Source: a virus | DNA length: 40,992 nt | IMG/VR virus record: IMGVR_UViG_3300046836_000562 | Location: 1 to 40,992 of that record | Reading direction: 5' to 3' (one strand) | Shown here: positions 2,297-19,022 of the stretch, piece by piece | Layout of the letters: every line of letters begins with the position of its first letter | How positions within the stretch are numbered: position 1 is the stretch's first letter | Notes under the pieces: generated by a model | What the model saw: the letters and a program-made list of their open reading frames with translations, nothing else | The model's database searches: none | What the model was told of the DNA's origin: nothing | Made by a program: the position numbers and the translations under genes

Positions 2297-2506
2297 TCAG
2301 GCGGGCTGGCGGACGAGGAGCGAGCGCTCCCACGCCTCCACGTCCTCGAGGCGGTAGCGGACGAGCAGGCCGTTGCGGATGAAGTTCGGCCCGGTGCCCT
2401 TGCTGTTCCAGCCGTAGACGGTCGGCTCGGAGACGCCGAAGCGATCGGCGAGGTCCTTGACCGTCAGGTGGCGGGGGCGCGGCTCGCCGGGCTTGCGCGG
2501 CGGCAT
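2297..2506 (-). CDS. Excisionase/AlpA-like helix-turn-helix protein
   Basis: A 69-aa DNA-binding protein of the HTH_17/excisionase type. The recognisable core is LTVKDLADRFGVSEPTVYGWNSKGTGPNF followed by the wing LVRYRLEDVEAWERS. Such proteins act as recombination directionality factors or small transcriptional regulators. The ATG (2504-2506) overlaps the TGA of the HTH gene just upstream, so the pair is translationally coupled. With no integrase visible in the window, a regulatory rather than excision role is plausible. A transfer module usually carries such a gene beside its integrase, so this may be what is left of an int-xis unit. Confidence 0.75.
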   Translation of the reverse strand: MPPRKPGEPRPRHLTVKDLADRFGVSEPTVYGWNSKGTGPNFIRNGLLVRYRLEDVEAWERSLLVRQPA

Positions 2507-2697
2507 CAGGACGCCGCCTTGACGAGCTGGGCCTTGCGGCGGGCAAGGAAGGCCTCGACGGATTCCTCGGTGATCCGGTAGTGCGAGTTGGGCGCGTCGC
2601 CGGTTTTGATGGCCTCCAGCTCGCCGTCCCGGATCAGCTTCGCGAGCAGGTTCCGGTTAACCCCGATCCGCTTGCGCGCCTCTGCTGATGTCAGCAT
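2506..2697 (-). CDS. Small HTH (excisionase-family) DNA-binding protein
   Basis: A 63-aa protein, MLTSAEARKRIGVNRNLLAKL, then GELEAIKTG and HYRITEESVEAFLARR, the usual layout of a minimal HTH_17 domain with a C-terminal helix. The ATG at 2695-2697 has a GGGAG site 9 bases upstream. It is the first gene of the leftward early operon and lies directly below a promoter and a group of repeated operator-like sequences (2719-2843), which it or its coupled partner may bind. Function as excisionase, repressor or activator cannot be separated from sequence alone. Confidence 0.75.
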   Translation of the reverse strand: MLTSAEARKRIGVNRNLLAKLIRDGELEAIKTGDAPNSHYRITEESVEAFLARRKAQLVKAAS

Positions 2698-2718
2698 TTT
2701 CGGCAGCTCCCTGGCTTG

Positions 2719-2843
2719 CTAGTACTTGCCTGTGAGTGGCAACTTAGGGCACGTCAGGTGGCAGAGTCAAGCGACTAGAGGCAAGTGATGGCAAGTTTAA
2801 GTTGGACAAGTAGCTACCAGTGGCCACTAGTTGCCTTGACTAG
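2719..2843. promoter_or_regulatory. Leftward early promoter with repeated ASTTGCC operators
   Basis: On the minus strand TTGACT (2765-2770) and TAAGTT (2741-2746), 18 bases apart, make a plausible promoter for the HTH gene at 2697. Around it lie copies of ACTTGCC/AGTTGCC in both orientations: 2724-2730, 2738-2744, 2780-2786, 2790-2796 and 2829-2835, plus an imperfect copy at 2804-2811. Two direct copies are 10 bases apart, one helical turn. ACTAG is repeated beside several of them (2719, 2774, 2826, 2839). The stretch is visibly richer in A and T than its surroundings. Confidence 0.65.
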
Positions 2844-2907
2844 CCTCAACTCGCTGTCCGGGGACGGATGCAGACAGATGGCGTTGGCTGTAGACGTCTA
2901 TGTGCAT

Positions 2908-2924
2908 GAGGCGCAGCGCGCCTC
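2908..2924 (-). terminator. Short hairpin after the GntR gene
   Basis: GAGGCGC at 2908-2914 and GCGCCTC at 2918-2924 form a perfect 7-bp stem with a 3-base loop, 13 bases past the stop of the leftward GntR gene. A 10-bp palindrome, TAGACGTCTA, lies at 2891-2900. It could stop GntR transcription before the operator region at 2719-2843. Confidence 0.45.
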
Positions 2925-2936
2925 GCGTAGCGGGAG

Positions 2937-3203
2937 CTAGCGAGGGTCGTCGGGCTTCTCCTCGGTTACGAACGTGCCCTTGCCTGCCCGGGCGGCCAGG
3001 ATGCCCCGCTCCTGCAGCACCTGCATGGCGTGCATCACCGTGGAGTAGCCCACCGCCCAGTCCTCGGCGAGGTCCCGGCCGGCGGGGATGCGATCGCCGG
3101 GCGCAAGGTCACCCCGGGCGATCGCCGCGGTGATGTGAGCGGCGATCTGCTCGTACAGCGGGACGACCGACATGGGCCGGAGGTCGGGGCGCGTCAATGC
3201 CAT
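2937..3203 (-). CDS. Short GntR-family repressor (KorSA-like)
   Basis: An 88-aa protein made almost only of a GntR winged HTH: VPLYEQIAAHITAAIARGDLAPGDRIPAGRDLAEDW, then VGYSTVMHAMQVLQERGILAARAGKGTFV. It has no effector domain, as in the short GntR regulators (KorSA type) that repress transfer genes of Streptomyces plasmids and AICEs. It is divergent from the transfer operon beginning at 3390, with a promoter and repeats between them that are the likely operator. ATG at 3201-3203 was chosen; a TTG at 3210-3212 has a better spaced AGGGG site and would add three residues. Confidence 0.85.
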   Translation of the reverse strand: MALTRPDLRPMSVVPLYEQIAAHITAAIARGDLAPGDRIPAGRDLAEDWAVGYSTVMHAMQVLQERGILAARAGKGTFVTEEKPDDPR

Positions 3204-3258
3204 GGTGATCAACGTAATCCCCTGCCTACCTGCGGAAATAACCCGAGAGCAACCGTGC

Positions 3259-3291
3259 GCATTGCAATGCTATCGCTTGCATTGCTACGGT
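3259..3291 (+). promoter_or_regulatory. Promoter/operator of the transfer operon
   Basis: TTGCAA (3263-3268) and TACGGT (3286-3291) are 17 bases apart, a good actinomycete-type promoter reading toward 3390. A perfect 12-bp palindrome, GCATTGCAATGC (3259-3270), covers the -35 box, and GCATTGC is repeated at 3279-3285, exactly 20 bases on (two helical turns). This is the expected position for binding of the divergent GntR repressor. Confidence 0.65.
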
Positions 3292-3389
3292 GGCCCCTAG
3301 CAGGGCTTCCGACAACGGCGGCCACGCTGCCGCCCCCGCGCCTTGCCCGGACGCGGGGGCGGCTCACCGGGCACCGGGCGGAGGGGCTG

Positions 3390-3641
3390 ATGAGCTGGGG
3401 ACCAGAGGGCAGGCCTGCGCTGGACGCGCGGAAGGCGGCCGAGCTGACGACGGCCGAGCTGGGCGCGTGCCTGGAGTGGGCCGAAGGGCAGCTGGCCCGC
3501 GATGACCTGGAGCCGCGGCGGCGGGAGAACCTCGACGGGTGGCGGCAGGAGCTGCTGGCCGAGCAGGGCCAGCGCGCCGACATGGCCGCGGAGGCCAGGG
3601 CCCGCATCGCGGCAATGCGCGCCACCGGGCGGCAGTCGTGA
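3390..3641 (+). CDS. Small charged helical protein of the transfer operon
   Basis: An 83-aa hydrophilic protein with no recognised family. It is rich in Ala, Glu and Arg, and residues about 12-75 look continuously helical (AELTTAELGACLEWAEGQLA and RAEMAAEARARIAAMRA-like heptads). ATG at 3390-3392 with GAGGGG just upstream. It is the first gene of the plus-strand transfer operon under the GntR-controlled promoter and its TGA overlaps the GTG of the next small gene. Small helical proteins at this position are usual in AICE transfer operons, but their role is not known to me. Confidence 0.6.
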   Translation: MSWGPEGRPALDARKAAELTTAELGACLEWAEGQLARDDLEPRRRENLDGWRQELLAEQGQRADMAAEARARIAAMRATGRQS

Positions 3642-3827
3642 GCAGCAGGGAAGCCGACATCGAGGCCGCGTTGTCCCACGGCGACCCGGACGTGAAGGTC
3701 GAGGCCCACCCCTGAGCCGGACGGGTCACGGATCGTGGTGGAGGTTGACGGGGTGACGTACCGGTTCTCGGTCGGGCCGGGCAGGTCGGCGCTGGTCACC
3801 TTCCTGATAACCGGCCACGTCGGCTAG
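3638..3827 (+). CDS. Tiny protein with probable +1 frameshift at CCC-TGA
   Basis: From the GTG at 3638 (overlapping the previous TGA) the zero frame ends after 25 codons at 3713-3715. The codon before the stop is CCC (3710-3712), and a one-base forward slip re-pairs the proline tRNA on CCT (3711-3713) and opens a frame to TAG at 3825-3827. The fused product would be 62 aa, with a C-terminal part (RIVVEVDGVTYRFSVG) that looks like a folded beta segment. A GAGG sequence lies 5 bases before the CCC. Either a programmed +1 shift, a natural frameshift mutation or a one-base sequencing error explains it. The function is unknown. Confidence 0.45.
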
Positions 3828-3920
3828 TCCCGCCGCTAACTGAAAGCGCCCCGCCGCCCGGGTGAAAGCCGGACGACGGGGCTGGACGACCCACCTGAGC
3901 TAGCAGGAAGGCGGTCCTTC

Positions 3921-4628
3921 GTGGACCCTATCGACAATTCACGACCGCGCGCTATCCCTGTCCTGGGATGGCTCCGCGCATGGTGGTCACGGATCATTGG
4001 CGGCCTCGCGTTCGCCGTCGTGGCCGGCGTCACCGGCCGCATCAGCTACGTCCACATCCAGGCGCTGAGCGTGGCTCTGCACCAGTCCCCGGGAGTCGCC
4101 CGGATCATGCCGTTCGGCGTCGACGGGCTCATCGTCGTCGGCTCCGTCGCGCTGCTGAACCCGCCCGACAGCCAGCCGTGGCTCGGCTGGATCTGCGTGG
4201 CACCCGGCTCGGTCGTGAGCCTGTTCGCGAACGTCATGTCGTCCATCGCGGACGGCTGGCTGTCGGCCGCCTGGGCCGGGGTGGCATCCATGTCGTTCAT
4301 CGCGGCCACCTACACGCTTGAACGGTGGATGAAAGCCCAGTTCAGCGTACGTAGCCACGGTGGTTTTCCCGCCGCGGCGGAGACTGATGCGGAGGCTCCC
4401 TCCGCAGGCGGCGCCGACGGCGATCCTGAGCCGGCCCAGCCAACGACGATGGAGGCGCTGCGGCTGCTGCTGGGCACCGCCACGCAGCGGGACCTGGCGT
4501 TCGCGCTGAGGGTCGACCGGAACCGGATCCTCGCGTGGGAACGCCAGCTGGATGCGGCGGCCAGCGAGGTGGATGAGCCGCCCGCGCCGGATCCGACCGT
4601 GAGCGGACTGAACGGGAGCGCGCCGTGA
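3921..4628 (+). CDS. DUF2637 transmembrane protein (Spd-like)
   Basis: A 235-aa membrane protein of the DUF2637 family. The signature SYVHIQALSVALHQSPG, then MPFGVDGLIVVGSVALL is clear. Four hydrophobic segments lie within residues about 20-135, followed by a hydrophilic linker and a C-terminal HTH-like segment (ATQRDLAFALRVDRNRILAW). In Streptomyces plasmids and AICEs this family sits beside the FtsK/TraB translocase and is thought to help intramycelial plasmid spread. GTG start at 3921 with GGAAGG upstream. Its TGA overlaps the GTG of the next gene. The combined membrane and HTH parts suggest a link between membrane and DNA, which is inference. Confidence 0.85.
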   Translation: MDPIDNSRPRAIPVLGWLRAWWSRIIGGLAFAVVAGVTGRISYVHIQALSVALHQSPGVARIMPFGVDGLIVVGSVALLNPPDSQPWLGWICVAPGSVVSLFANVMSSIADGWLSAAWAGVASMSFIAATYTLERWMKAQFSVRSHGGFPAAAETDAEAPSAGGADGDPEPAQPTTMEALRLLLGTATQRDLAFALRVDRNRILAWERQLDAAASEVDEPPAPDPTVSGLNGSAP

Positions 4629-4819
4629 GCCGCCGCCGGATGAAGGTGCTCGCCGTGGCCACCCTCGGCCTGCTGTGGCTGTGCACGCTGCACGTCAGCG
4701 TTCCGCTGGCCGGCCAGGTGCCCGCCGGGGAATTCGTGGCGTGCGCTGAGGCTGTGGTCCTGGCGGTGATCGGCTACGGGATCGCCGGGTCCCTCGGATG
4801 GCAGGTGAGGGCAGGATGA
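4625..4819 (+). CDS. Small membrane protein of the transfer operon
   Basis: A 64-aa protein with two predicted membrane helices (LAVATLGLLWLCTLHVSVPL and ACAEAVVLAVIGYGIAGSLG). GTG start overlapping the DUF2637 stop, and TGA overlapping the ATG of the translocase gene, so it is coupled on both sides. Its position and size fit the small Spd proteins of Streptomyces transfer regions, which are thought to form a membrane complex with the translocase. No catalytic motif. Confidence 0.7.
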   Translation: MSRRRMKVLAVATLGLLWLCTLHVSVPLAGQVPAGEFVACAEAVVLAVIGYGIAGSLGWQVRAG

Positions 4820-6894
4820 CCGCGGGCCCGCACTCGCCGGGCGCCGCTGATGATGACGCCGGGCGGGACGAGGACGACGACGACGTTGCTGAAGGCCAGG
4901 TCGTCCCATTCCCCGGGGTGATCGTCCCCGCGGCCCCCGCGAAGCCGCAGCGCGGCCAGCCGGGCGAGTGGAAGCCCGTCATCCCCCAGCACCTGCGCAC
5001 CCGGGAGGGCATCGCCAGGTCCGCCGGCTGGCACTACCGGCGGGCACGGCACCACTCGCTCTACCACGGGGTGCGCATCCCTGGCCGGATCGCGCTCACC
5101 CTCGGCTGGGCAGCCGTCGGGCTGACCCGCATCACCTTCGCGCAACTGTCGTGGTGGTGGGTCAGCGAGCAGACCTACCTGCGGCACTCGGCTGCCGCTG
5201 ACGGGGACGCCGCGAAGTGGCTCAGCCTCAATAAGCACGTCCGGGAAGTCCGGCTCGTCCGCGGCCTGATCCTGCTCGGCGAGGGCACTGCGGTCACCGT
5301 CGGCGCCATCGTGCTGACCTGGCACTCGCCGTACGCGCCGCTGCTGTGGATCCCGGTCGGCGTCGTCGCCGTGCCGGTGCTGGCGTGGATCGGCCGGCCG
5401 GACGACAAGCCCATCGTGACCAGCTCCGTCGTCCCGGTCGCCGTCGAGCGGCTCACCATCGAGCTGATCATCCGCGCGCTCGGCGCGCTCGGCATCGCCG
5501 AGATGAACAAGGCCCTGCGCGAGGACGCCGCCAAGGCGATCACCACGATTGACGGGCCGATGCGGGACGGCCCCGGGTGGCTGTGGCGCGGTGACCTGCC
5601 GCACGGCGTGACGGCCGGGCAGGTCAGCGAGAAGCGCGAGGAACTGTCATCCGGCCTGCGGCGCCCGCTCGGCACCGTGTGGCCCGAGACGGACCACAAG
5701 CGCCACGCCGGGGCGCTCAGCCTGTACGTCGCCGACGAGGACATGACCACGGCCGAGCAGCCGCCCTGGCCGCTGGCGAAGCGCGGCAAGGCCGACATGT
5801 TCACGGGCACCGTGTTCGCGTTCGACCCGCGCGGCCGGCCGGTCACCGTCACCCTGATGTTCGTCTCGATCATCATCGGCAGCATCCCCCGGATGGGCAA
5901 GACGTTCCTGCTGCGGCTACTGCTGCTGATCGCGGCCCTTGACGTGCGCTCTGAGCTGCACATGTACGACCTGAAGGGCACCGGGGACCTGGCCCCGCTC
6001 CGGTCGGTGGCGCACCGGTACCGGGCTGGGGACGACCCCGACGACATCGAGTACATGGTGGCCGACTTCCGCGCGCTGCAGGCCGAGATGCGCCGGCGGA
6101 CCAAGGTCATCCGCCGCGTCGCCGACGAGGAGCAGGAGCGCTGCCCGGAGAACAAGGTCACCCCGGAGCTGGCCGCCGACAAGAGCCTGCGACTGCATCC
6201 CATCGTCGCCGCGATCGACGAGTGCCAGATCGCCTTCGAGCACCCCGCGTACGGCGAGGAGATGGAGTCCATCTGCACCGACCTGACGAAGCGCGGCCCG
6301 GCGCTCGGGATGCTGCTCATCCTCGCCACGCAGCGGCCCGACGCCAAGTCGATCCCGACCGGGATCAGCGCTAACGCCGTGCTGCGGATGTGCCTGAAGG
6401 TAATGGGGCAGCTCGAAAACGACATGGTCCTGGGCACCTCGCAATACCGGAGCGGAATCCGCTCGACGCAGTTCAGCTTCGATGAGAAGGGCGTGATGTA
6501 TTTCGCCGGGGAGGGAATGCGGCCAAAGATCGTGCGGAGCCAGTACATTGACGGCCCGGCTGCCAAGGTGATCGCCGCGCGGGCGCGGGTAATGCGGCAG
6601 CAGGCCGGGCGGCTGACCGGGTACGCGGCCGATGAGGATTCCGATCAGGAGAAGCGCTCGTTCCTCGATGACGTCCTGGCGGTATTCGGCGATGACCGGA
6701 ACCTGTGGTCCGAGACGATCGCCGAGCGGCTCAGCGGGGCGGTTCCCTCGGCCTACGCGGACATCACCCCGGCCGCCGTCGCCAGCCAGCTCCGCGCGCT
6801 AGGGGTGGCCGTCAAGAAGGTGCGGGAGCCGGGCAGGGAGCCGCGCGCCGGGTGCGAGCGGGCGGGCGTTGCCGAGGCTGCCGGGCATGGGTGA
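4816..6894 (+). CDS. FtsK/SpoIIIE (TraB-type) DNA translocase
   Basis: A 692-aa hexameric-translocase-type ATPase. Order: acidic N-terminus (about 1-30), two or three membrane helices (about 95-200), then the FtsK motor domain with Walker A GSIPRMGKT (residues 355-363) and Walker B IVAAIDE (463-469), an ATQRPD motif further on, and a C-terminal winged-helix-like segment (about 615-670). Streptomyces TraB proteins of this class move double-stranded DNA between cells and recognise short repeats (clt) with the C-terminal winged helix. The ATG at 4816 overlaps the previous TGA and has GAGGGCAGG upstream. The neighbours (GntR, DUF2637, small membrane protein, zinc proteins) are the standard transfer set, arguing for conjugation rather than cell division or packaging. 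Confidence 0.9.
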   Translation: MTAGPHSPGAADDDAGRDEDDDDVAEGQVVPFPGVIVPAAPAKPQRGQPGEWKPVIPQHLRTREGIARSAGWHYRRARHHSLYHGVRIPGRIALTLGWAAVGLTRITFAQLSWWWVSEQTYLRHSAAADGDAAKWLSLNKHVREVRLVRGLILLGEGTAVTVGAIVLTWHSPYAPLLWIPVGVVAVPVLAWIGRPDDKPIVTSSVVPVAVERLTIELIIRALGALGIAEMNKALREDAAKAITTIDGPMRDGPGWLWRGDLPHGVTAGQVSEKREELSSGLRRPLGTVWPETDHKRHAGALSLYVADEDMTTAEQPPWPLAKRGKADMFTGTVFAFDPRGRPVTVTLMFVSIIIGSIPRMGKTFLLRLLLLIAALDVRSELHMYDLKGTGDLAPLRSVAHRYRAGDDPDDIEYMVADFRALQAEMRRRTKVIRRVADEEQERCPENKVTPELAADKSLRLHPIVAAIDECQIAFEHPAYGEEMESICTDLTKRGPALGMLLILATQRPDAKSIPTGISANAVLRMCLKVMGQLENDMVLGTSQYRSGIRSTQFSFDEKGVMYFAGEGMRPKIVRSQYIDGPAAKVIAARARVMRQQAGRLTGYAADEDSDQEKRSFLDDVLAVFGDDRNLWSETIAERLSGAVPSAYADITPAAVASQLRALGVAVKKVREPGREPRAGCERAGVAEAAGHG

Positions 6895-6930
6895 CGCAGC
6901 CCCATGGGGCGGGGGGATGACCAGGCCGGC

Positions 6931-7060
6931 GTTCCGGGCGGGAACAGCGGAACATCGCAGGCCACAGGCCACAGGCGCTGTTCCGGGCGTTCCGCCTGGC
7001 GGCGTAACCGCAGGTCGGCGCGTGTTCCGCTACCGGAACACTTCAAGGGGGGACCGGAAC
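6931..7060. repeat. Cluster of GTTCCG/CGGAAC repeats (candidate clt/transfer site)
   Basis: In 130 bases directly after the translocase gene there are seven exact GTTCCG/CGGAAC hexamers at 6931, 6948, 6980, 6989, 7024, 7034 and 7055 plus a one-mismatch copy (GGGAAC) at 6940. GTGTTCCG (7022-7029) and CGGAACAC (7034-7041) form a perfect 8-bp inverted repeat with a 4-base loop. A short tandem GCCACAG repeat occupies 6961-6975. TraB-type translocases bind short repeated DNA motifs near their own gene, so this is a good candidate recognition locus. A replication origin or an operator for the next gene are alternatives. Confidence 0.6.
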
Positions 7061-7061
7061 G

Positions 7062-7475
7062 GTGAGCTGGCGGCCGCAACTCAGCGTCGTCTGCAACCGG
7101 TGCGGGAAGCCGCGCGGCCTGACCCACGTCTGCGTCAGCAACTCCCGGCGCAAGCAGAGCGTCAAGCCGAGGCTGACGTACGGGAAGTGCCCGGAGTGCC
7201 GCAAGCCCTACGGGGCCGTCCCGCTTGCCCACGTGTGCGCGCCCAAGTCCGACTTCAAGCGCCGCAAGGCGGAGCACGAGAAGCGGGAGCGCGAGAAGGC
7301 CAGGAAAGCCAAGCCGAAGCACGACTACACCGAATGCTCCGATGCCGAGTGCAAAAGGTCGCTGTGCGTCGCCCATAAGGCCGGGATTGCCCTTGGCGAC
7401 GAGCGCGGATATCAGCGCGGATGGCAGCAGGGATATGCGCGCGGCTCGGCCGAATGCCCGCGAGATCATAAGTAA
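7062..7475 (+). CDS. Zinc-ribbon protein of the transfer module
   Basis: A 137-aa basic protein. It has two similar Cys units: CNRCGKPRGLTHVC near the N-terminus and CPECRKPYGAVPLAHVC around residues 45-61, each a CxxC plus HxC pattern expected to bind zinc. They are followed by a Lys/Arg-rich helix, a third Cys group (CSDAECKRSLC) and a Gly/Arg tail (DERGYQRGWQQGYARG). GTG start with AAGGGGG about 10 bases upstream. Proteins of this layout commonly follow FtsK-type genes in actinomycete elements. It may bind DNA; the exact role is not known. Confidence 0.75.
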   Translation: MSWRPQLSVVCNRCGKPRGLTHVCVSNSRRKQSVKPRLTYGKCPECRKPYGAVPLAHVCAPKSDFKRRKAEHEKREREKARKAKPKHDYTECSDAECKRSLCVAHKAGIALGDERGYQRGWQQGYARGSAECPRDHK

Positions 7476-7485
7476 GGAGATGCTG

Positions 7486-7704
7486 ATGACACAGTTCCTG
7501 GTAATGCTTGCCCTGCTCGGCTCGTACGGCCTGTTCGTGCTCGTCTCGCCTACGAAGGCGTGCGGGGCGTGCCAGCGGCGTCGCGGGCGGCCGTGCCCGC
7601 GGTGCCAGGGGACGGGGCGCCAGTTCCGGCCGGGCGCGCGACTGGTGCACCGCGGCGCGGTGAAGGCGCGCCAGCAGGCGCGGGAGCGCCGCCGCCGAGG
7701 ATGA
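7486..7704 (+). CDS. Small membrane protein with DnaJ-like zinc motif
   Basis: A 72-aa protein with one N-terminal membrane helix (FLVMLALLGSYGLFVLV) followed by CGACQRRRGRPCPRCQGTG, which resembles one CxxC-CxxCxGxG unit pair of the DnaJ zinc-binding domain, and a basic tail. The ATG at 7486 was preferred to one at 7480 because AAGGAG ends 6 bases before it. It is the last gene of the plus-strand transfer operon. It would sit in the membrane with the zinc knob and the basic tail inside. Function unknown. Confidence 0.75.
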   Translation: MTQFLVMLALLGSYGLFVLVSPTKACGACQRRRGRPCPRCQGTGRQFRPGARLVHRGAVKARQQARERRRRG

Positions 7705-7850: not shown

Positions 7851-7885
7851 GAAGGCCCCCGCCGGTTTCCCGGCCGGGGGCCTTC
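7851..7885. terminator. Bidirectional hairpin between convergent operons
   Basis: GAAGGCCCCC (7851-7860) pairs with GGGGGCCTTC (7876-7885), and the inner GCCGG/CCGGC extends the stem around a short T-rich loop. It lies between the end of the plus-strand transfer operon (7704) and the end of the minus-strand late operon (7900), where a two-way terminator is expected. Confidence 0.8.
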
Positions 7886-8181: not shown

Positions 8182-8937
8182 TTAGTGCTCGATTACCTTC
8201 CATGCCGACCACTGGCCGGCCGGCAGCGCGCGCACCCGCCACACGGCCGGGGCGGGCAGCCCGAGGTCCAGGCCCATCGCGTGGCTGCCGCTGACGACCG
8301 GCTGCGCGATGACCGTGCCGGGCGCGGCCGGGGTCCCCTCGGCCACCTCGACGCCGTACTGCTTGACGCCAGCGATGGGTGCCCAGCTGAGGTCACCGGT
8401 CACGTGCGGCGTGCCCGACTCGCCGCCCGGCGCGGGCAGGCCGGGCGCGACAGGCGGCTTGCGGTGCGGCCACGCCGTGTCATAGACCACCGTGGCGTCC
8501 CAGTCCGGGGTGCTCTCGTACTGGGTCGCGGCCGCGCCCAGGTAGGCCTGGTGCGGCTGGTTGGTGTAATGGGCCACCCACAGGTCATAGTCCTTGCCGA
8601 GGATGTAGCTGCCCGTCCCCCGGCGCACGTCCGGCACGAGGTACAGCGAGCAGTAGATCGTCGGGCGGTACAGCCCGGCGGCCTTCCGCATCGCGATCCA
8701 GCCCGCCGCCTGGTCCGGGCGGGCATCCCCCGTCTCCACGTCGAGCACGTCCCCGGCGTTGGCGGCCGCGGTCACGCTGATCGTCACGTGGTCGGCGTGC
8801 GGGAACAGGCCCCACTCCGCCTGGCTCCACGCGTAGCGGCCGTTGACGTAGCCGGCCACCTTGACCGCGCCCGGGAACTGGCGGGCGATCCCCGCCGCGA
8901 GGGAGTTGATGCCGTCGTACATCAGGATGTCGTTCAT
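8182..8937 (-). CDS. Glycoside-hydrolase-like lysin with C-terminal Fn3-like domain
   Basis: A 251-aa protein. Residues 1 to about 160 resemble the GH25/DUF1906-type TIM-barrel found in actinobacterial lysins: MYDGIN at the start, VAGYVNG, then HVTISVTA, DVLDVETGDA (acidic residues where the catalytic carboxylates would be), YCSLYLV, LWVAHYTN and QYESTPDWDATVVYD at the end of the barrel. Residues about 175-250 form a beta domain like fibronectin type III (WAPIAGVKQYGVEVAEG and WRVRALPAGQWSAW). It lies next to small membrane proteins that look like holins, fitting an endolysin. ATG start with GGAG 6 bases upstream. There is no signal peptide. A tail-associated murein hydrolase is the alternative. 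Confidence 0.65.
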   Translation of the reverse strand: MNDILMYDGINSLAAGIARQFPGAVKVAGYVNGRYAWSQAEWGLFPHADHVTISVTAAANAGDVLDVETGDARPDQAAGWIAMRKAAGLYRPTIYCSLYLVPDVRRGTGSYILGKDYDLWVAHYTNQPHQAYLGAAATQYESTPDWDATVVYDTAWPHRKPPVAPGLPAPGGESGTPHVTGDLSWAPIAGVKQYGVEVAEGTPAAPGTVIAQPVVSGSHAMGLDLGLPAPAVWRVRALPAGQWSAWKVIEH

Positions 8938-8945
8938 GAGTGCTC

Positions 8946-9263
8946 CTAGCAGCCGAAGTTGCGACGCAACATCACGAAATCGGAGTACAGCGTGTACGCC
9001 TGCATCCGCGACGGATTCGCCGCAGGGTCCGCCGGCTTAGGCACCGGCTGGCTCGTCAGCAGCGCCAGCGTGTCGCACCACTGCCGGTCAGAGCTGGACA
9101 CCTGGAACGTGGTGAACCACAGGCACGCCGCCGCGACCAGGAAGTTGATCGCGAACAAGATGACCGCCGCCCGCCGGGCACCGCGCGACATCCCATCTCC
9201 GTGCTCGCCCCGCTCCCCCCGTTCGCCCTGCTCACCGCGCTGGCCGCGCTCGTGCTCAGCCAT
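8946..9263 (-). CDS. Single-pass membrane protein of the lysis region
   Basis: A 105-aa protein. The N-terminal 30 residues are very hydrophilic, with repeated GE(R/Q) units, followed by one membrane helix (AAVILFAINFLVAAACLWF) and a C-terminal extracytoplasmic segment with two Cys. ATG at 9261-9263 overlaps the end of the gene upstream. A topology of one helix with an outer tail could fit a holin partner or spanin-like protein, but no specific family was recognised. Confidence 0.6.
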   Translation of the reverse strand: MAEHERGQRGEQGERGERGEHGDGMSRGARRAAVILFAINFLVAAACLWFTTFQVSSSDRQWCDTLALLTSQPVPKPADPAANPSRMQAYTLYSDFVMLRRNFGC

Positions 9264-9522
9264 CAGCTTCCCCCGTGGCTGGCGACGAGGAGGACGAAGC
9301 CGGCGACCCCGGCGGCGATGACGAGGGCGAGGCTGAGCCAGTGGACCCAGACAGCGCCTTGATCCGCTTGCCCCCCTCGGCGAGCAGCAGCGCCAGCGCC
9401 GCCCCCGTCAGCACGTCCGACGGCGTGCGGTCCGCCAGCGCCCACAGCACCGCCTCCAGCACGATGATCAGCGCCCCTAGCCCCGCGAGCAGCGCTGGCC
9501 ATGCTGTCGAAACCCACTTCAC
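9256..9522 (-). CDS. Putative holin-like protein, two membrane helices
   Basis: An 88-aa protein starting at the GTG at 9520-9522, which overlaps the upstream TGA. Two hydrophobic helices (ALLAGLGALIIVLEAVLWAL and LTGAALALLLA) are followed by a Ser/Pro-rich tail. Size, two helices and position just before a lysin-like gene are typical of phage holins, though the Ser/Pro tail is not the usual charged one. Assigned by context. Confidence 0.55.
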   Translation of the reverse strand: MKWVSTAWPALLAGLGALIIVLEAVLWALADRTPSDVLTGAALALLLAEGGKRIKALSGSTGSASPSSSPPGSPASSSSSPATGEADG

Positions 9523-9698
9523 TTCGCCTCGCTTCCACTGTCCGTGGCCGCCGTCCTGGTGACGTGCGCCCGCGTCTCCTCGTGCAGCCGCCGGGCCTGC
9601 CTGCGCAGCGCCACGTGATGCGCCCCGATGCCCAGCAGCGTCCAGGCCGACGGCGCCACCACGTTCGGCCACAGCGCCTCCCACAGGTGCGCGAGCAT
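9519..9698 (-). CDS. 59-aa putative holin/membrane protein
   Basis: A very short gene with the ATG at 9696-9698 overlapping the preceding gene's TGA and its own stop overlapping the next GTG. The product has one hydrophobic helix (WPNVVAPSAWTLLGIGAHHV) and a basic, His/Arg-rich tail (RRQARRLHEETRAH). Similar short WP-containing proteins with a charged tail occur among the lysis genes of Streptomyces phages. Probably a holin component or anti-holin; this is based on layout only. Confidence 0.55.
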   Translation of the reverse strand: MLAHLWEALWPNVVAPSAWTLLGIGAHHVALRRQARRLHEETRAHVTRTAATDSGSEAK

Positions 9699-10219
9699 CA
9701 GGCCATCCTGGTCATCTGCAGGTAGGACCCGGCCTTCAGCACCGTCGCCGTCGCGTTGGTCGTGTTCTGCGACCACAGCAGCTGCAGGCTCCCCGCCGAG
9801 GAGCCCATCAGCAGGCTCCCGGAGATCTGCGCCCCCGACGCGTTCGAGGCGTCCACCCCGATCGCGCCGGTCGCCCCGGAGGTGCTCCGCACGTGCGACA
9901 CCGCCGCCGTGGTGCCGGTCGTCGCGAACGAGTCGCACATCCAGTTGCCCTGCGCCCCGCCCGCGCCTGACGGCCACGTCAGCTTTATCAGCAGGTCCGC
10001 GGTGCTGATCGCCGCGCCGGTCGCGATCAGCAGACCTTCGAAGACGTACCTCGCGTTGGCCAGCAGCGGCAGCGTGAAGTCGGCGTCAACCGTCGGCGTG
10101 ACGGTATTCGACCTGGGTAGGTCGACTTCCTTCCACGCGGTGTACGGCGCGAGCGACTGGATCAGCGACGCCGTGTAGTCCATCCCGGGCAGGATCACCG
10201 GGAACTGCCCCTGGGGCAT
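9698..10219 (-). CDS. Minor tail/fibre protein, beta-rich
   Basis: A 173-aa protein rich in Thr, Ser, Gly and Ala without membrane segments or signal. The middle, with LLANARYVFEGLLIATGAA and a final LQLLWSQNTTNATATVLKAGSYLQMTRMA, follows the pattern of small beta-sandwich proteins at the end of actinophage tail modules. ATG at 10217-10219, 13 bases after the preceding large tail gene. Likely a virion-surface or tail-tip protein. The exact role is unknown. Confidence 0.6.
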   Translation of the reverse strand: MPQGQFPVILPGMDYTASLIQSLAPYTAWKEVDLPRSNTVTPTVDADFTLPLLANARYVFEGLLIATGAAISTADLLIKLTWPSGAGGAQGNWMCDSFATTGTTAAVSHVRSTSGATGAIGVDASNASGAQISGSLLMGSSAGSLQLLWSQNTTNATATVLKAGSYLQMTRMA

Positions 10220-10232
10220 CAGCCACCTGCTC

Positions 10233-13200
10233 TCATAGTGCGGCTACCGGGGTGTCCCACAGCGCCACCGCGGCGGCCGCGGCCTGCGCCTTGACGACGC
10301 CGTTCACGCTGCGGGTCACCGTCAGGGCCTGCGGGCTGGTGATCGTCGCGGTGTAGACGGCGCCGGACGTCGCGGCGTTGCCGCCCGACTTGACGGTGAT
10401 CCCGGTCAGCGACCCGGAGATCGTGACCAGCGCCGCGGCCTGGACGTAGGTCCCGGCCGCCGCGGCGTTGACGCTCACCGCGACCAGCGCCCCGCCCGGC
10501 TCGGTCGCCAAGGTGAAGTTGTTCAGCTCGTTCGCGCCGACGGTGCCGCCCAGCTGGACCGTCCAGCCGACCAGCCAGGTGCCCGGCGGCAGCGGCACCG
10601 TCGTGATCAGCTGGGCGTGCGCCGCCGGCGTCGTCGCCGACCCGGTGCCGCCGCTGCCGACGGCAGTCACCGTCACCCGCTCGCCCGCGATGCGCAGGTC
10701 CCACGGCAGCCCCGGGCTGGTGCTCCACGGCAGCCCCGCATTGGCCGCGAGCAGCGACGTGGCGCCGGAGCTGGCGGCCGACGCGAGCACGCAGCCGTCC
10801 GTGTCGGCCTTGCCCGTGCTGGTCCCCTCCTGCGCCACGCGGTACGGCGCCGACGGGATGCCGCACACCGTGATCACGCGCACGTCGCTGAACACCTCCT
10901 CGGCGAGCTGCGCGGCCAGCTGGCTGACGGTGTCCGGGCCGAGGAACCCCGGCGGGTGCGCGATCGTGAGCCGCTGCCCGAGGTCGAGCGCGGCGACCTG
11001 CGCGGACAGCGTCGCGCCCAGGCCCCGGTTCGCCAGGTCGATCGCGATGCCGGGCAGCCGGTGCTCGTCGACGGTGCCGACGTGCACCATCCACGTCGCC
11101 GTGCCCGGCAGGTCCTCGGCGCTGCCGAGGTTGAGGGACGCGCCGCCCCCGTCGTAGGTGCCCACCCCGCCCTGCTTCGGCGGCAGGGCCGCCAGCCGGC
11201 CGCCGGTGACCGGGTTGCCCGGCGCGGCGATGGCCCGGGCCGAGCTGCCGCCCTGGCTCTGGGTGACGGTGACGTCGTTGGCGATCGCCTGGTCATCGCG
11301 GGTCGGCGGCGACGGCCACTCGCCGAGCTGGTCAGCCGCGTAGTCCAGCGCCACCGCGGCGGCCTGGTTATACAGTGCGCTCCTGGGGACGTAGCCCCAG
11401 CCGAGCTGCTGCCGCAGCTCGAACCACGCTCCACGGTCGGCGTCGGCGCACTCCTGGACCAGCGCCGTCACCGTCTGGCTGGCCTGCGGCCCCATGGCCG
11501 CCGTGCCGCCGAGGATGCCGGCCGCCCGGAACGGTATCCCCTCCTCGCCGCAGATCCGGGCCATCCGGCTGCCCGCCGCCTCGAGGTCCCAGGCGTTGAG
11601 CGCGCCGTCCAGCGGAGTCAGGTCCCCGGTGGCAGCCTGGACGGCGACGTGGCCGAAGACGGTCGTGGTGAGCTGCCCGGAGCCGCCGAGCGCGACGCGG
11701 GTCACCGCGCCCACGGTCGCGCTGGCGATGTTGCCGCTGGCAGCGCCGGCGCTGCCACCGGGCACGGTGGCGGCTATCTCCCAGTTGACGCCCCCGGCCC
11801 CGTCCGGGGCCAGGCTGATCCAGAACAGCATCGCGACGCCGTTGGCGGCGAACAGGACCGTGCCGCCTCCGGCGAGCAATGTGCCGTCTGACGCGTAGAA
11901 GAACGGCACGAGGCCGCCGCCGGTGGCGTAGCGGACCACGATCCCGGCCACGGTGCCGCTCGTGGCGATCCTGATGACCTCCGCGGTATTGAACTCGCCG
12001 CCGGATGCCAGCTCCATCAGCCACGACACCTGGTTGCCCGCCCACGTCCCGCCGTACGGGCCGACCTTGCCGCTGAACGTGGCCAGGTTGGCCTGCGGCA
12101 GCGGGTCCGAGCAGGCGAAGTCGCTGTTGCTGGCCAGCTGGGGGGAGCCGGAGTAGTACATCGGCTGGCCGCCGATGCCGGAGGCCAGCGACTGCGCGCC
12201 CGTGCCGTCCTCCATGGACCAGTAGGCCGCCAGGCTCACCCCGGTGATCGCCCATGCCCGGAATATGGCCGACCGGGCCGGGTTGTTGCCCTGCCCGAGG
12301 CGGCGCAGCAGCCCGCCGCCCGCGACGGGGGCCAGCAGCGCCGGGATGACGCCGGTACCCGGGTCGGCCGGCGGCTGGTCCTCGGGGAACTCGGCGATCT
12401 CGGCGTGGGCGCGGTAGTCGCGGTCGCTGATCTCCGCCCCGCCGCCGGTCAGCCACGTCCGCCCCGCCGAGTCGGTCCACGTCGTGGTGCCCGCGGCCTG
12501 CCCGCTGAACACCCCGTCGGCCACCACCGTCCCGCCGATCCCGGAGTAGAGCCTGTACTCCTGCACCTGGCCGCGCAGCTGCACCGGGATCAGGGCCGCC
12601 AGCGAGAATGAGTAGCCGATCACCAGTGCCGACGTCGTCAGCGACAGGATCGACGTCGCGGCGCCGCCGGTGCCGGACGCCGCGGTGCCGAGCGCGGTGT
12701 AAGTGCCGTCGATCGACGTGGCCGTGTAGAACGCGACGGTGCCCGTCGTGGCGTCCATGGTGACCCGCAGCGCCATCGCGCCCCGGGTGAGCGGCACCGG
12801 CACCGTGGAGGTAACCGAGTGCTGCACGACGCCGGAGTCCACCCAGCCGAACGACAGCGTCGCGTCGTCGTTGAGGAGGAACGTCCAGCAGCCGCCGCCG
12901 TCCCACTTGGCCGCCAGCACGCACCCCTGCCAGTCGGTCAGGGCCAGCTGGATCCGCATCTCGATCGACCCGGTGATGTGCAGCGCGGCGACATCGTTGA
13001 TGAACGCGCGGTCGAAGGCGTCGTTCTCCAGCCGCAGGTAGTTCCCCGGCGCGGGGACGCTGACCCGGCACGGCACGTTCTGGACCAGGTACGGGTAGTA
13101 GGGGCCGGTGACGCTGTTGGCCGAGAAGCGGTAGTCCGAGTTGGTCAGCGTCATCGCCAGCGTTGACGGGCTCACGGTGGTCGACTCGTCCGGGTGCCCG

Positions 13201-13310
13201 CGGGCGATGCTGACCGGCCCCTGGTCGAGGTAGTGGGTGACGTTAGTCCAGGCGTTGTTGACCTGCAGCTCGGCGCGGACGTCGAGGGGGATGTCGGGGA
13301 AGGCGCTCAT
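10233..13310 (-). CDS. Large minor tail protein with LamG-like domains
   Basis: A 1025-aa structural protein starting MSAFPDIPLDVRAEL at the ATG 13308-13310, which overlaps the preceding TGA. The first 100 residues (NNAWTNVTHYL and RGHPDESTTVSPSTLAMTL) match the N-terminal part of tail-tip proteins of Streptomyces siphophages. Two concanavalin/LamG-like beta domains follow (about 100-270 and 350-520), suitable for sugar binding. The C-terminal half contains a tail-hub-like region and a Thr/Ala-rich beta domain. It lies between the fibre genes and a small tail protein. Probably part of the distal tail that contacts the cell wall. Confidence 0.8.
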   Translation of the reverse strand: MSAFPDIPLDVRAELQVNNAWTNVTHYLDQGPVSIARGHPDESTTVSPSTLAMTLTNSDYRFSANSVTGPYYPYLVQNVPCRVSVPAPGNYLRLENDAFDRAFINDVAALHITGSIEMRIQLALTDWQGCVLAAKWDGGGCWTFLLNDDATLSFGWVDSGVVQHSVTSTVPVPLTRGAMALRVTMDATTGTVAFYTATSIDGTYTALGTAASGTGGAATSILSLTTSALVIGYSFSLAALIPVQLRGQVQEYRLYSGIGGTVVADGVFSGQAAGTTTWTDSAGRTWLTGGGAEISDRDYRAHAEIAEFPEDQPPADPGTGVIPALLAPVAGGGLLRRLGQGNNPARSAIFRAWAITGVSLAAYWSMEDGTGAQSLASGIGGQPMYYSGSPQLASNSDFACSDPLPQANLATFSGKVGPYGGTWAGNQVSWLMELASGGEFNTAEVIRIATSGTVAGIVVRYATGGGLVPFFYASDGTLLAGGGTVLFAANGVAMLFWISLAPDGAGGVNWEIAATVPGGSAGAASGNIASATVGAVTRVALGGSGQLTTTVFGHVAVQAATGDLTPLDGALNAWDLEAAGSRMARICGEEGIPFRAAGILGGTAAMGPQASQTVTALVQECADADRGAWFELRQQLGWGYVPRSALYNQAAAVALDYAADQLGEWPSPPTRDDQAIANDVTVTQSQGGSSARAIAAPGNPVTGGRLAALPPKQGGVGTYDGGGASLNLGSAEDLPGTATWMVHVGTVDEHRLPGIAIDLANRGLGATLSAQVAALDLGQRLTIAHPPGFLGPDTVSQLAAQLAEEVFSDVRVITVCGIPSAPYRVAQEGTSTGKADTDGCVLASAASSGATSLLAANAGLPWSTSPGLPWDLRIAGERVTVTAVGSGGTGSATTPAAHAQLITTVPLPPGTWLVGWTVQLGGTVGANELNNFTLATEPGGALVAVSVNAAAAGTYVQAAALVTISGSLTGITVKSGGNAATSGAVYTATITSPQALTVTRSVNGVVKAQAAAAAVALWDTPVAAL

Positions 13311-14851
13311 ACGATCCCCGATGCCATGATCGCGCCGTTCCCGGACGATGCCAGGATGTGCGCCAGGGCGTCGGCAACCCAGTCGTTCTCCCACGCGTGC
13401 GCCGCGTCGAGGGAATCCCACTCGCTGTGCAGGACGCCCATGGTGGTCAGCTGCGCCTTGTAGGCGGCGACGTCCGCGGTGAACGCGAACCGGCCGCCGA
13501 TCCACAGCCGCTTCTGCGCGGTGAACGACCCGCCCGCCGCGGTATTCCAGGCCGTGATGTTCGCCGTGGACAGCTGGTAGTTGTTCTTGAAGCTCGCGCT
13601 GGTGCCGTAGGCGTTGGCCGGGTTGCCGCCGACCGTGCTCCCGAACGTCGGGTCCGTCCCGTCGAAGTCCGTCATCATGAACGGCGCGTCCCAGCTGGCC
13701 GTCTTCGCCCACACGTCCGGCCGCCGGAACTGCAGGCCCTGGCCGCCTATGCCCGACTTGGAGAAGCCGATGAGGTAGTTCTTCTCCGTGCCGCTGGTGG
13801 CGTACTGGGAGGCCTGGAGCCACTGCACCAGGTGCAGCATGAAGGTTTCCTGCTGCTGCGCCGCGTTGTTCGGGTTGTCGGCGTACCACGGGTCGATCGC
13901 GTACGCGGGGACGACGATCGTCAGGTTGTAGGCGTTGTGGATGCCGAGCGACTCGGCGACGGATATCGGGTCGCCGTTGGTGGTGGCGGTGCCGATCACC
14001 ACGGGCAGCATGTACAGGAAGGCGTGCTGGTACCTCGTGCTCGGCGAGCTGGGCGGCAGGATCCGCAGCGTCTGCGTCCCCGGCCCGTTGATCGTCGACG
14101 TGAACGACCAGCTGGCCATCCCGCTGCCGTCGACGCCGCTGAGCACGGGGACGAAGTCGGGGACGGGCGACGCCGCCAGCAGCACCGTGTGCGTAACGAG
14201 GATCGAGTTAGTGGCGGACGAGGTCGAGAACGTGCCGCCGCCCACCTGGGTGCCGGAGCTCACGACCGCGTTGCCGTCGCAGATCGCGGACGCGACGTCG
14301 GCGCCGGACACGATCGCCGCCCGCGACGTCGACCCGGCCGGGAGCGTCAGGCCGCCGCCCTCGGCCGCGCCGCCGCCCATGAACACGGCCAGCGACCCGG
14401 CCGCGGCGATGGCGGTGGCCAGCGGGCAGGTCACCGCCGCCGTGTTAGCGCCGCCGAACGCGCCCAGGGAGACCACCGAGATCGGCACCGACGTGTTGGC
14501 GGACGCGTAGGCGAACAGCGAGATAGCCCAGAACCCCGCGATAGTGGACTGGAAGGTGATGACCTTCCCCGCGTCGGAGGCACTCGCCGTGAACTGGAAC
14601 GGGGTGCCACTGACCGATGCCGGGAGCGGTTCCGAGCCGGTCGCCGGGGTGCCGAACGCCGCCGGGGTGGTCCCGGTCGACGACAGGACGGTGACCACGG
14701 GCGCGGTGGCGGTGGTGACCGGCAGGCAGATGGCGTAGATGAGCACCAGGTCCCCGAGCGCGACGGCGGCGGGGATCGTGATGGCCTGCTGGGTCAGCGC
14801 GCTGGCGCTGGTGGCGGTGGCGTTCGACGACGCCCGGGGGGAGATCGCCAT
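13307..14851 (-). CDS. Tail protein with C-terminal alpha/beta-hydrolase (esterase-like) domain
   Basis: A 514-aa protein. ATG at 14849-14851, one base after the previous stop, was chosen over an overlapping TTG at 14875. Residues 1 to about 230 are Ala/Thr/Ser-rich beta repeats, like phage tail adaptor proteins. Residues about 270-505 resemble an alpha/beta hydrolase: a strand with VVIGTA, LTIVVPAYAIDPWYADNP, then YLIGFSKSGIGGQ with the likely nucleophile Ser364 in GFSKSG, later Asp-rich loops and a His in AHAWENDWV. Such a domain on a tail could deacylate or cleave a cell-surface polymer during adsorption. Catalysis is inferred from the motif only. Confidence 0.7.
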   Translation of the reverse strand: MAISPRASSNATATSASALTQQAITIPAAVALGDLVLIYAICLPVTTATAPVVTVLSSTGTTPAAFGTPATGSEPLPASVSGTPFQFTASASDAGKVITFQSTIAGFWAISLFAYASANTSVPISVVSLGAFGGANTAAVTCPLATAIAAAGSLAVFMGGGAAEGGGLTLPAGSTSRAAIVSGADVASAICDGNAVVSSGTQVGGGTFSTSSATNSILVTHTVLLAASPVPDFVPVLSGVDGSGMASWSFTSTINGPGTQTLRILPPSSPSTRYQHAFLYMLPVVIGTATTNGDPISVAESLGIHNAYNLTIVVPAYAIDPWYADNPNNAAQQQETFMLHLVQWLQASQYATSGTEKNYLIGFSKSGIGGQGLQFRRPDVWAKTASWDAPFMMTDFDGTDPTFGSTVGGNPANAYGTSASFKNNYQLSTANITAWNTAAGGSFTAQKRLWIGGRFAFTADVAAYKAQLTTMGVLHSEWDSLDAAHAWENDWVADALAHILASSGNGAIMASGIV

Positions 14852-14852
14852 G

Positions 14853-15644
14853 TCAGAAGCCCAGCGCCGAGCCAAGGTAGCGCACGGCGCCGCCGAAGTT
14901 CTTGAACGCCAGCACGTCGGCGGCGTTCGCCGTGGTGGTCAGCGTCGGCGTGCCGGCGCCGCCGAACTTGTAGACGGCATTCCAGGTGACCACCCTGCTG
15001 CCCGCCGAGTCCTGGGTGACGGTGATCGTGAACGCCTGCCCGTCGGTGAGGTTCGACGGGGCGCCGATCGCGCGGGTCGCGCCGATGCCGCTCGTTGCGA
15101 GCAGCCGGAAGTCGTTGCCCGCGCTCGCGTCGATGGCGACCGTTGCCGCGTCGGTCAGCGTGACCACCGCCGGGGCCAGGTGGCCCGCCATGGCGTCCCC
15201 GGCCTTCGCGACCGCCCCGACCTGCGCCGCCGTGTAGTCGCCGGACTGCGGGGTGACCGTGCCCGTGCGGCCGTCCCAGCTGGTCACGCCGCCGCTGGCG
15301 GCCGGGCCGTACGTGGTGGACGCGATCACCGGGGCCAGGTTGTCCAGCCGCTGGCTGGCCCCGTTCGCGAAGGCGGGCATCACCAGCCGCGGCGATGATT
15401 CCCCCGGAAGCTGCACCTCATACGCCCAGAAGCCGGAAGCGGGCGTCGTGCCGCTGTTGTCGCAGGCGACCAGCGATATCGTCACGCTGCCGCCGGACAG
15501 CTGCCGCACGACCGGCACCGGCGAGACCACCGTCACCCCGGCCGCCGTGACCGCGCTGGTCGGCTGGACGCTCACCGTCCCCGTGCCGGCGTCCTGCCCG
15601 GCGTCCTGCGACGTGATCAGCAGCGATACGTAGTTGAGCGTCAC
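14853..15644 (-). CDS. Tail fibre/receptor-binding-like protein
   Basis: A 263-aa protein. After a beta-rich N-terminus there is a VTSWDGRTGTVTPQSGDYTA segment, the short collagen-like or hinge signature that recurs in phage tail fibres and baseplate proteins, followed by a C-terminal beta domain containing VVTWNAVYKFGGAGTPTLTT and a closing ADVLAFKNFGGAVRYLG. That C-terminal pattern is common in receptor-binding modules of actinophages. GTG start (15642-15644) with GGGGAGG upstream. It follows the tape measure gene directly, as expected for distal tail proteins. Confidence 0.75.
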   Translation of the reverse strand: MTLNYVSLLITSQDAGQDAGTGTVSVQPTSAVTAAGVTVVSPVPVVRQLSGGSVTISLVACDNSGTTPASGFWAYEVQLPGESSPRLVMPAFANGASQRLDNLAPVIASTTYGPAASGGVTSWDGRTGTVTPQSGDYTAAQVGAVAKAGDAMAGHLAPAVVTLTDAATVAIDASAGNDFRLLATSGIGATRAIGAPSNLTDGQAFTITVTQDSAGSRVVTWNAVYKFGGAGTPTLTTTANAADVLAFKNFGGAVRYLGSALGF

Positions 15645-15647
15645 CGC

Positions 15648-18398: not shown

Positions 18399-18408
18399 CG
18401 CTCACCTC

Positions 18409-18587
18409 CTAGCGGGCCTTGCTCATCTCGGCGATGTAGCCGTCAATCCCGTCGATGTAGGCGGCGAAGTCCCAGATCGTCAGCTCATCGACCTCGCGCG
18501 CCCCCAGGTGGCACAGCCTCGCCAGCGGGAACAGGTACTCGGCCCGCAGCGCCGGCAGTGGCCGGGTCAGGACACGATGGGGTTCCC
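18409..18587 (-). CDS. Tail assembly chaperone, -1 frame extension
   Basis: This segment is open in the -1 frame relative to the chaperone gene at 18567-19022 and ends with a conserved-looking chaperone tail (REVDELTIWDFAAYIDGIDGYI). In most siphophages such a segment is made only as a fusion by ribosomal frameshifting. No standard slippery heptamer is present, but two zero-frame CCC codons are each preceded by C (18588-18591 and 18579-18582), allowing single-tRNA backward re-pairing just before the zero-frame stop. The fusion would total about 200 aa and ends 10 bases before the tape measure start. Confidence 0.6.
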
Positions 18588-19022
18588 GGGGTCGTATCCC
18601 GGCGGCGGCGGCAGGTACTGCTGCACGGGCTGCGGGGTCGTAGCCGTCGGGGTACCTGACGTCGGTGACGGAGGACCGTCCGGGAGGGGGCCGGTAGGGC
18701 CCACCGCGCCGACCCGGTCCTCGGCATCCCTGGCGGCATCCGCCGCAGCGTTCTCCGCAGCTTCCTCGGCCTCGCGCGCCTCGCCCATGGCGGCCATGAA
18801 TGCCAGCGTGTCGAACTCGCAGTCCTTGATCGGCTTCTCGATCCCGTTCTGCTGGAGCATCAGCCAGTAGTCGCACTGGATCGCCCGCACGTCGAGTTGC
18901 TGGATGCCCTCCAGGAGGGCCTTGATCGTGAGGCCGTAGGCGAAGTGAATCGCGAGGCCCTGCTTGACCCCGATGGTTTCCTGGCTGAACTTCCAGGTGC
19001 GGCCCTCGAAATCGATCTTCAC
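18567..19022 (-). CDS. Tail assembly chaperone (short form)
   Basis: A 151-aa protein starting at the GTG 19020-19022 that overlaps the upstream TGA. The sequence (MKIDFEGRTWKFSQETIGVKQ, then AIQCDYWLMLQQNG and DTLAFMAAMGEAR) has the layout of the first tail chaperone of actinophages, with an N-terminal small alpha/beta fold and a long Ala/Glu-rich helix followed by a Pro-rich end. It is followed by a -1 frame extension. The chaperone coats the tape measure protein before tail tube polymerisation and is absent from the virion. Confidence 0.75.
   Translation of the reverse strand: MKIDFEGRTWKFSQETIGVKQGLAIHFAYGLTIKALLEGIQQLDVRAIQCDYWLMLQQNGIEKPIKDCEFDTLAFMAAMGEAREAEEAAENAAADAARDAEDRVGAVGPTGPLPDGPPSPTSGTPTATTPQPVQQYLPPPPGYDPGNPIVS

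Follow-up and report, generated by a model that had tools for sequence, protein, structure and literature searches.

A TraB-type translocase module with a candidate clt site in a tailed-phage genome

In Streptomyces-like bacteria, phages are usually viewed as spreading by virions, and conjugation is ascribed to plasmids and to actinomycete integrative and conjugative elements (AICEs). The IMG/VR record IMGVR_UViG_3300046836_000562 raises the question of whether a single element may use both routes. This record, analysed over its whole length of 40,992 bases and referred to below as the window, carries phage genes together with a cassette encoding a GntR-type regulator, an FtsK-like DNA translocase and several small proteins. 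An earlier note on this DNA had proposed a plasmid-type transfer cassette inside a complete siphophage genome. We hold, with moderate confidence, that the window represents a siphophage that infects a mycelial actinomycete and is temperate, or once was, and in which an intact TraB-type transfer module in the lysogeny region would provide a second route of spread.

A TraB-like translocase joined to phage genes

The translocase gene (4816..6894, plus strand) encodes 692 amino acids, with hydrophobic stretches at residues 150-194, an FtsK motor and a C-terminal domain at about residues 616-691. The FtsK family score was 6.6e-5 in Pfam (22.9 bits at a cut-off of 24; 25.7 bits in another scan) and 3.1e-25 for phrog_1358, and a PDB profile search returned FtsK (1.3e-10). 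The AlphaFold model, built from 34 sequences with a mean predicted local distance difference test score of 85.6, contains long N-terminal helices, the motor and the C-terminal domain; its best Foldseek matches were the FtsK motor (1.8e-14) and the coupling protein TcpA (2.9e-13). Hydropathy exceeded 1.6 at residues 150-169 and 171-194, inside helices predicted at 63-193, and these stretches qualify as predicted membrane segments. The order predicted for residues 616-691 was H-E-H-H-H-E-E-H, which we read as a winged helix.

With the protein as tblastn query, 57 plasmid records were matched, including that of pSVH1, whose TraB aligned at 27.9% identity over query residues 238-600 (4e-22). By its motor fold, hydrophobic N-terminal segments, winged helix and similarity to pSVH1 TraB, the window FtsK is TraB-like, and the relation on which the earlier note had let its proposal stand or fall was borne out.

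The virion and lysis module (endolysin, tail, tape measure, head-tail, major head protein, protease, portal, TerL and TerS genes) occupies 8182..30373 on the minus strand. TerL, portal, protease, major head protein, head-tail adaptor, tape measure and tail proteins were identified there, the major head protein through an HK97 Phage_capsid match above cut-off, so that the virion structural and packaging genes by which a phage-plasmid is recognised are present. The full set claimed earlier held for the TerL, portal, capsid, tape measure and tail genes; the matches of TerS (phrog_83, 3.3e-4) and of the endolysin (GH25-type, 3.3e-4, under cut-off) were weak. Streptomyces phages gave the best tail-protein matches (32 of 33 records). 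Gene calling with a codon model yielded 59 genes, to which two were added by hand (7480-7704 and 34133-35020), and the PHROGs scan covered 50 of these 61. Bases 1-135 recur at the end of the record (133 of 135 identical, the first 121 exactly) and one gene runs across the junction, as in a molecule that is either circular or terminally redundant; the overlap is compatible with a circle and also with a permuted virion genome. The record is a tailed-phage genome with overlapping ends.

The same join of cassette and phage genes was found in an independent virus record of 52.8 kb, in a part designated L006, where the FtsK is 73% identical to that of the window. The order in L006 is exonuclease, two xis genes, XRE repressor, integrase, two GntR genes, DUF2637, FtsK, two CxxC proteins (ZnA and ZnB), lysin and tail. 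The two DNAs aligned at 74-78% over window positions 2442-2795, 4864-6860 and 7063-7554. Among the virion proteins of the window, the tape measure (at 33%) and one tail protein (at 39%) were also matched in the 52.8-kb record, and no similarity to TerL, portal or capsid was found anywhere in it, a pattern which, judged from these alignments, resembles that of a module exchanged between mosaic phages. Between the two FtsK genes, the nonsynonymous rate (dN) was 0.21 and the synonymous rate (dS) 0.57, a ratio of about 0.37 by a simple counting method at high GC, which indicates a protein under selection.

These results bear on the suspicion of a chimeric assembly, in which phage DNA was joined to that of an AICE or a plasmid. 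The record is one of an uncultured virus and the FtsK family is commonest outside phages, but in L006, independently, this cassette likewise has early genes on its one flank and lysin and tail genes on its other, isolate plasmids (described below) hold the same combination, and the end overlap closes a circle. The chimera was rejected on account of L006 and the isolate plasmids, and we regard it as scarcely credible; the earlier worry that cassette and phage genes might come from different molecules falls with it.

The repeats behind ftsK

The 167 bp directly behind ftsK (6895..7061) carry seven CGGAAC hexamers, both strands counted, out of 31 in the whole record, as compared to 0.13 expected. 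At the same place L006 has four of the six CGCGACAC octamers of its locus, so that the arrays of the two relatives differ. A fixed test scored the 250 bp following ftsK by their best 7-mer cluster and ranked them among windows of the same locus; this place fell in the top 5% in 87 of 111 loci, the window itself at 1.03%. A cluster score of at least 5 was reached by 91 of the 111 places behind ftsK versus 79 of 771 control gaps, the control being other gaps of at least 120 bp. The positive control, pSVH1, gave CCGGGTC six times, which agrees with GACCCGGA, the sequence recognised by pSVH1 TraB.

Among the 91 loci with a motif, which are related and hence not independent events, motif similarity followed the identity of the C-terminal domain with a rank correlation of 0.59. 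With the motor held fixed, the partial correlation was 0.40, a value reached in 0 of 999 permutations; with the C-terminus held fixed, the partial correlation with motor identity was -0.02 (585 of 999 permutations). Within this set of sequences the repeat motif tracks the DNA-binding domain and not the motor. The repeats at 6895-7061 are a strong candidate for the clt (transfer site) of the window FtsK.

Of the 91 loci for which a motif was obtained, 79 have repeats of a TAG type (e.g., CCGCTAG, GCTAGAC) within the 250 bp that follow ftsK, and these repeats are candidates for a widespread clt family in actinomycetes. The CGGAAC motif of the window is unlike them.

The transfer operon and its integrase-less junction

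The cassette lies between the lysis and early genes, with its operon on the plus strand, the GntR gene divergent from it and two excisionase-like genes beyond; all of its genes are open. The genes named in the earlier note are present in the order given there (GntR, plus-strand operon, DUF2637, small membrane protein, FtsK, CxxC proteins). The GntR gene, however, is that at 2937..3173 (-), a helix-turn-helix (HTH)-only regulator of 78 amino acids (PF00392, 1.6e-16) and the presumed repressor of the transfer operon, whereas 2297-2697 holds a pair of excisionase-like HTH genes instead. One of these (2297..2506, minus strand, 69 amino acids) matched PF12728 at 3.2e-9 and phrog_66 at 1.2e-8 and has a 42% identical homologue in L006; the other (2506..2697, minus strand, 63 amino acids) matched PF12728 at 2e-9 and the NCBIfam model 'excise' above cut-off, with an L006 homologue at 60-62%.

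The operon opens with a gene for 83 amino acids (3390..3641, plus strand, from the gene call) that had no family match in Pfam, PHROGs or NCBIfam. It is followed on the same strand by the DUF2637 protein (4020..4628), which has hydrophobic segments by hydropathy, stands in a Spd-like position and matched PF10935 weakly (4e-4; 20.7 bits, just under the cut-off of 22.8), and by a small hydrophobic protein of 64 amino acids (4625..4819, gene call and hydropathy), presumably a membrane protein. Behind ftsK and the repeats lie ZnA (7062..7475, plus strand), a zinc-ribbon-like protein with CxxC at residues 11 and 43 and a 69% identical homologue at the same place in L006, and ZnB (7480..7704, plus strand), with a hydrophobic N-terminus, CxxC at 28 and 39, and an L006 homologue at 48%. 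The hairpin reported earlier at the join of cassette and phage genes is indeed there: a perfect, terminator-like 11-bp inverted repeat (7851..7885) between the convergent cassette and lysis genes, which was not among the results of a scan for terminators with T-runs.

A pump, a candidate site and a presumed repressor are most simply read as giving the phage another route of spread, one that needs no virion. The transfer operon would be kept silent in the lysogen by the GntR protein. Upon expression, the FtsK/TraB ring would take its place in the membrane, its winged helix would bind the CGGAAC repeats that directly follow ftsK, and the ring would drive phage DNA in double-stranded form into adjacent hyphae or compartments, possibly assisted by the DUF2637 and CxxC proteins. 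The virion genes would serve as the other route, and the prophage may be kept extrachromosomally, given the absence of an integrase.

The same parts might instead serve spread within one mycelium, carrying copies of the prophage across septa to newly formed compartments and to spores, and not between organisms. Spd-type genes of Streptomyces plasmids act in intramycelial spread. No integrase was found, nor any partition gene in the set of genes scanned, and a prophage kept outside the chromosome would depend on some aid to reach every compartment; the clt-like site and TraB architecture, on the other side, are as in plasmids and AICEs that cross between organisms, and we give this explanation a minor though real chance.

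The junction differs from L006 in one block. An operator-like gap (2698..2936) stands at the position of the L006 XRE repressor and tyrosine integrase, and this repressor-integrase block is exactly what the window is without, having about 240 bp there; the DNA upstream of the excisionase-like gene at 2506..2697 is alignable with L006. No remnant of the L006 integrase (best E 2.2) or XRE repressor (best E 0.42) was detected by tblastn, and the tyrosine integrase family PF00589 was not found in the window record. In the PHROGs scan, matches to excisionases or transposases were of the HTH type and none was to a catalytic recombinase, no serine-integrase model being used. A serine integrase was also considered and no candidate emerged, again with no model of that family: all gene-called window proteins above 300 amino acids match phage families or FtsK, except for one of 514 amino acids in the tail region. 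The lack of an integrase points to an extrachromosomal prophage or a recent loss. The earlier statement that neither Rep nor integrase is visible is right as to a tyrosine integrase and incomplete as to replication, since a phage-type replication initiation protein is encoded at 34133..35020 (-), with matches to phrog_3926 (2.3e-21), phrog_1408 (4.6e-14) and phrog_2447 (7e-14) and no match in a Pfam search.

A cluster of GGCAA/TTGCC repeats was observed beside the xis pair (2715-2840) and is kept in L006; these may be excisionase sites, an operator or iterons.

The missing block could also mark a relic, in which the repressor and integrase were lost and the transfer genes are decaying passengers or have another role, e.g., in excluding rivals. 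L006 with its XRE repressor and integrase between xis and GntR, and the window with about 240 bp and no tblastn remnant, fit such a loss. Against it stand the open cassette genes, the FtsK dN/dS of about 0.37, and a repeat array that is present and unlike that of L006, as expected of a site evolving with its protein. We consider a relic improbable.

Relatives, known systems and meaning

The searches proposed in the earlier note found FtsK relatives in 57 plasmid records, in 24 virus records and in bacterial genomes. An alignment search yielded the 24 virus records, and TerL (phrog_9), the gene whose co-occurrence was to be counted, was present in 15 of them, the HK97 capsid in 11 and the portal (phrog_12) in 10. 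At least one of these three virion markers was found in 19 and at least two in 10; four marker genes had an internal stop or were split (records G001, G007, G016 and G022). DUF2637 occurred in 12 of the 24 and a tyrosine integrase in 17. In bacterial genomes there were at least 553 confirmed relatives, of which 80 loci were analysed; the best among the matches listed was from Herbidospora (50%). The 38 genomes from these loci, searched whole, contained 80 FtsK matches at 1e-40, and five were within 25 kb of a phrog_12 portal gene: two close to the FtsK of the window (S. meridianus, L053, and Streptomyces STR69, L069) and three distant. By these counts the family is mainly not phage-borne, yet occurs repeatedly in phages.

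The rarity of phage genes beside genomic relatives (3 of 80 loci) would also suit an element that is not a phage, namely a conjugative element or satellite with captured virion genes that no longer makes virions. A Pseudonocardia plasmid and the virus record G010 do combine Prim-Pol, integrase, FtsK and head genes. The window, however, has head, tail, tape-measure and lysis genes with a good coding signal, phage recombination genes and the phage-type initiator, and no Prim-Pol, and we find this explanation very improbable. The minus strand of the window also encodes a RusA-like resolvase (36839-37288), a phrog_3657 protein of unassigned function (37835-39064) and an exonuclease VIII-like protein (39061-39909).

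Elsewhere in the window, the product of 1237-1434 (-) is a phage copy of the BldC family of actinomycete regulators (NCBIfam HTH_BldC, 95.1 bits against a cut-off of 77), and 133-366 (-) matched WhiB-like phage regulator families (phrog_12112, 1.1e-7). The 514-amino-acid protein mentioned above (13307-14851, minus strand) had no Pfam or PHROG match; a GFSKS-like motif of esterase type was noted by eye. Rfam and tRNA searches of the window gave no matches.

Several results weigh against a phage with a working second route. Five of the 24 virus records had none of the three virion markers. Phage genes were near FtsK in just the three of 80 genomic loci (scanned with phage proteins of window and plasmid origin), one of which rests on a weak tape-measure match. 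The window FtsK matched 0 of 50,697 phage records at 1e-5 by tblastn, so that this collection holds no cultured virion-forming phage carrying the module; at E values up to 10, 41 phage records were matched (best E 1e-4), and the 20 listed covered 19-30% of FtsK, in its motor part. Without an integrase, an L006-like XRE repressor, or any match to a partition or plasmid Rep protein in the PHROGs scan, lysogeny is hard to account for, and the phage may be in the course of losing the module. The winged-helix part changes faster, with a dN/dS of 0.53 over the last 81 codons as compared to L006, as would be seen with a site that changes or with relaxed constraint. No strong repeat cluster lies behind ftsK in 20 of the 111 loci, pPaSha2 included, and 12 of the 20 have no 7-mer present three times. 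Other hexamers are equally dense elsewhere in the window, mostly low-complexity GCC repeats, and also CAGCGC at about 9.3 kb. Lastly, pSVH1 SpdB2 did not match the DUF2637 Pfam family and the match of the window protein is itself weak, so the label Spd-like rests on position.

The earlier note knew of no established hybrid of this kind; precedents exist. The complete circular plasmids of the isolates Pseudonocardia alni (pPaSha2, CP052773, 41.9 kb) and P. broussonetiae (unnamed3, 27.4 kb) carry, like the window, TerL, portal and capsid together with DUF2637 and an FtsK of the same family (43.5% and 29.5% identity). Unlike the window, both have a tyrosine integrase beside the cassette, and unnamed3 also a Prim-Pol and a primase; pPaSha2 differs further by the lack of a strong repeat cluster behind ftsK. 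Two loci, L017 (record G010) and L008 (a P. broussonetiae plasmid), combine an integrase, Prim-Pol and FtsK with head genes of phages; by gene content they form another type of hybrid, nearer to an AICE with phage packaging genes.

pZL12/PhiZL12 is a plasmid-phage of Streptomyces whose conjugal transfer has been studied (PMC3583192, PMC4487206); by its description it is plasmid and phage at once, as proposed for the window. Its relative pSLE1 shares a minus-strand GntR gene, a plus-strand operon and a conjugative-transfer protein, followed by terminase and capsid, but at 86 kb has roughly double the length and encodes ParA/ParB as well as two integrases. BLAST showed no similarity between the pSLE1 transfer protein and the FtsK of the window (best E 0.47); the pSLE1 protein barely matched FtsK_SpoIIIE (0.0063), and looks, from these comparisons, like one of another lineage; no clear repeat cluster lies behind its gene, where the commonest 7-mers occur three times and are frequent elsewhere. 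PhiNon1 of Nonomuraea gerenzanensis, an actinomycete plasmid-phage likened to pZL12 by its authors (PMC5431353), differs from the window by integrating at a tRNA-Val site.

The definition of an AICE calls for three components: integrase, Rep and a Tra protein of FtsK type (PMC3218068). The window has the FtsK/SpoIIIE-type Tra, and no integrase was found; Prim-Pol was not found either, the only initiator seen being of phage type in searches made without RepSA and RepAM models. Membership was rejected for want of an integrase. Short repeats behind tra are shared with AICEs and pSVH1-type plasmids, and pSVH1 also has a GntR regulator divergent from a TraB-ended operon with a Spd-type gene; the virion gene set and the absence of integrase and Prim-Pol set the window apart.

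FtsK-type motors are annotated in isolated phages as well, the cluster J mycobacteriophages and the 131-kb Streptomyces phages. Those of cluster J are without an N-terminal membrane domain and nearest to mycobacterial FtsK (PMC3706429), and pSVH1 TraB matched them weakly, with E 1e-5 at best among the matches listed. DUF2637 proteins were seen in two isolated Streptomyces phages. Hypothetical protein gp24 of phage VWB (L113, 7914-9230) is a strong member (1.2e-35), and that of the isolated 129-kb Streptomyces phage Gilgamesh (L114, 4950-6170), near an annotated ParB-like gene and two annotated AAA-ATPases, is 63% identical to a plasmid DUF2637 protein over 60% of the latter. In the stretches examined, a profile checked on positive controls gave no TraB-like neighbour in either.

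Of the papers on phage-plasmids and prophages, one names conjugation as a plasmid-like function (PMC11652158); the accessible text of one source describes oriT and mob genes and never mentions FtsK (PMC10879196), and that of another contains no occurrence of FtsK, conjugat- or AICE (PMC10023795). No RepA homologue was present in 105 of 110 parABS phages (PMC7157519), so a missing plasmid Rep is no strong objection, yet a partition gene was not found in the window either. A literature search at title and abstract level, with subscription papers outside its scope, found no description of a TraB module in a siphophage. The plasmid-phage idea itself is known; a TraB-type module with its own candidate site in a siphophage of about 40 kb looks new and recurrent.

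More tentatively, and with some doubt, we suggest a recurrent class of small actinomycete siphophages in which a TraB/clt module replaces or supplements integration, a genome of about 40 kb has two ways to spread, in virions and, from hypha to hypha, as naked double-stranded DNA, and each member has its own repeat-array address code co-evolving with the winged helix of its pump. If so, a phage with TraB and a cognate site could cross a dense mycelium without lysis or surface receptors, and might carry host DNA along, as TraB plasmids do. The link between motif and DNA-binding domain also allows transfer sites of many actinomycete elements to be predicted, and put to the test, at little cost.

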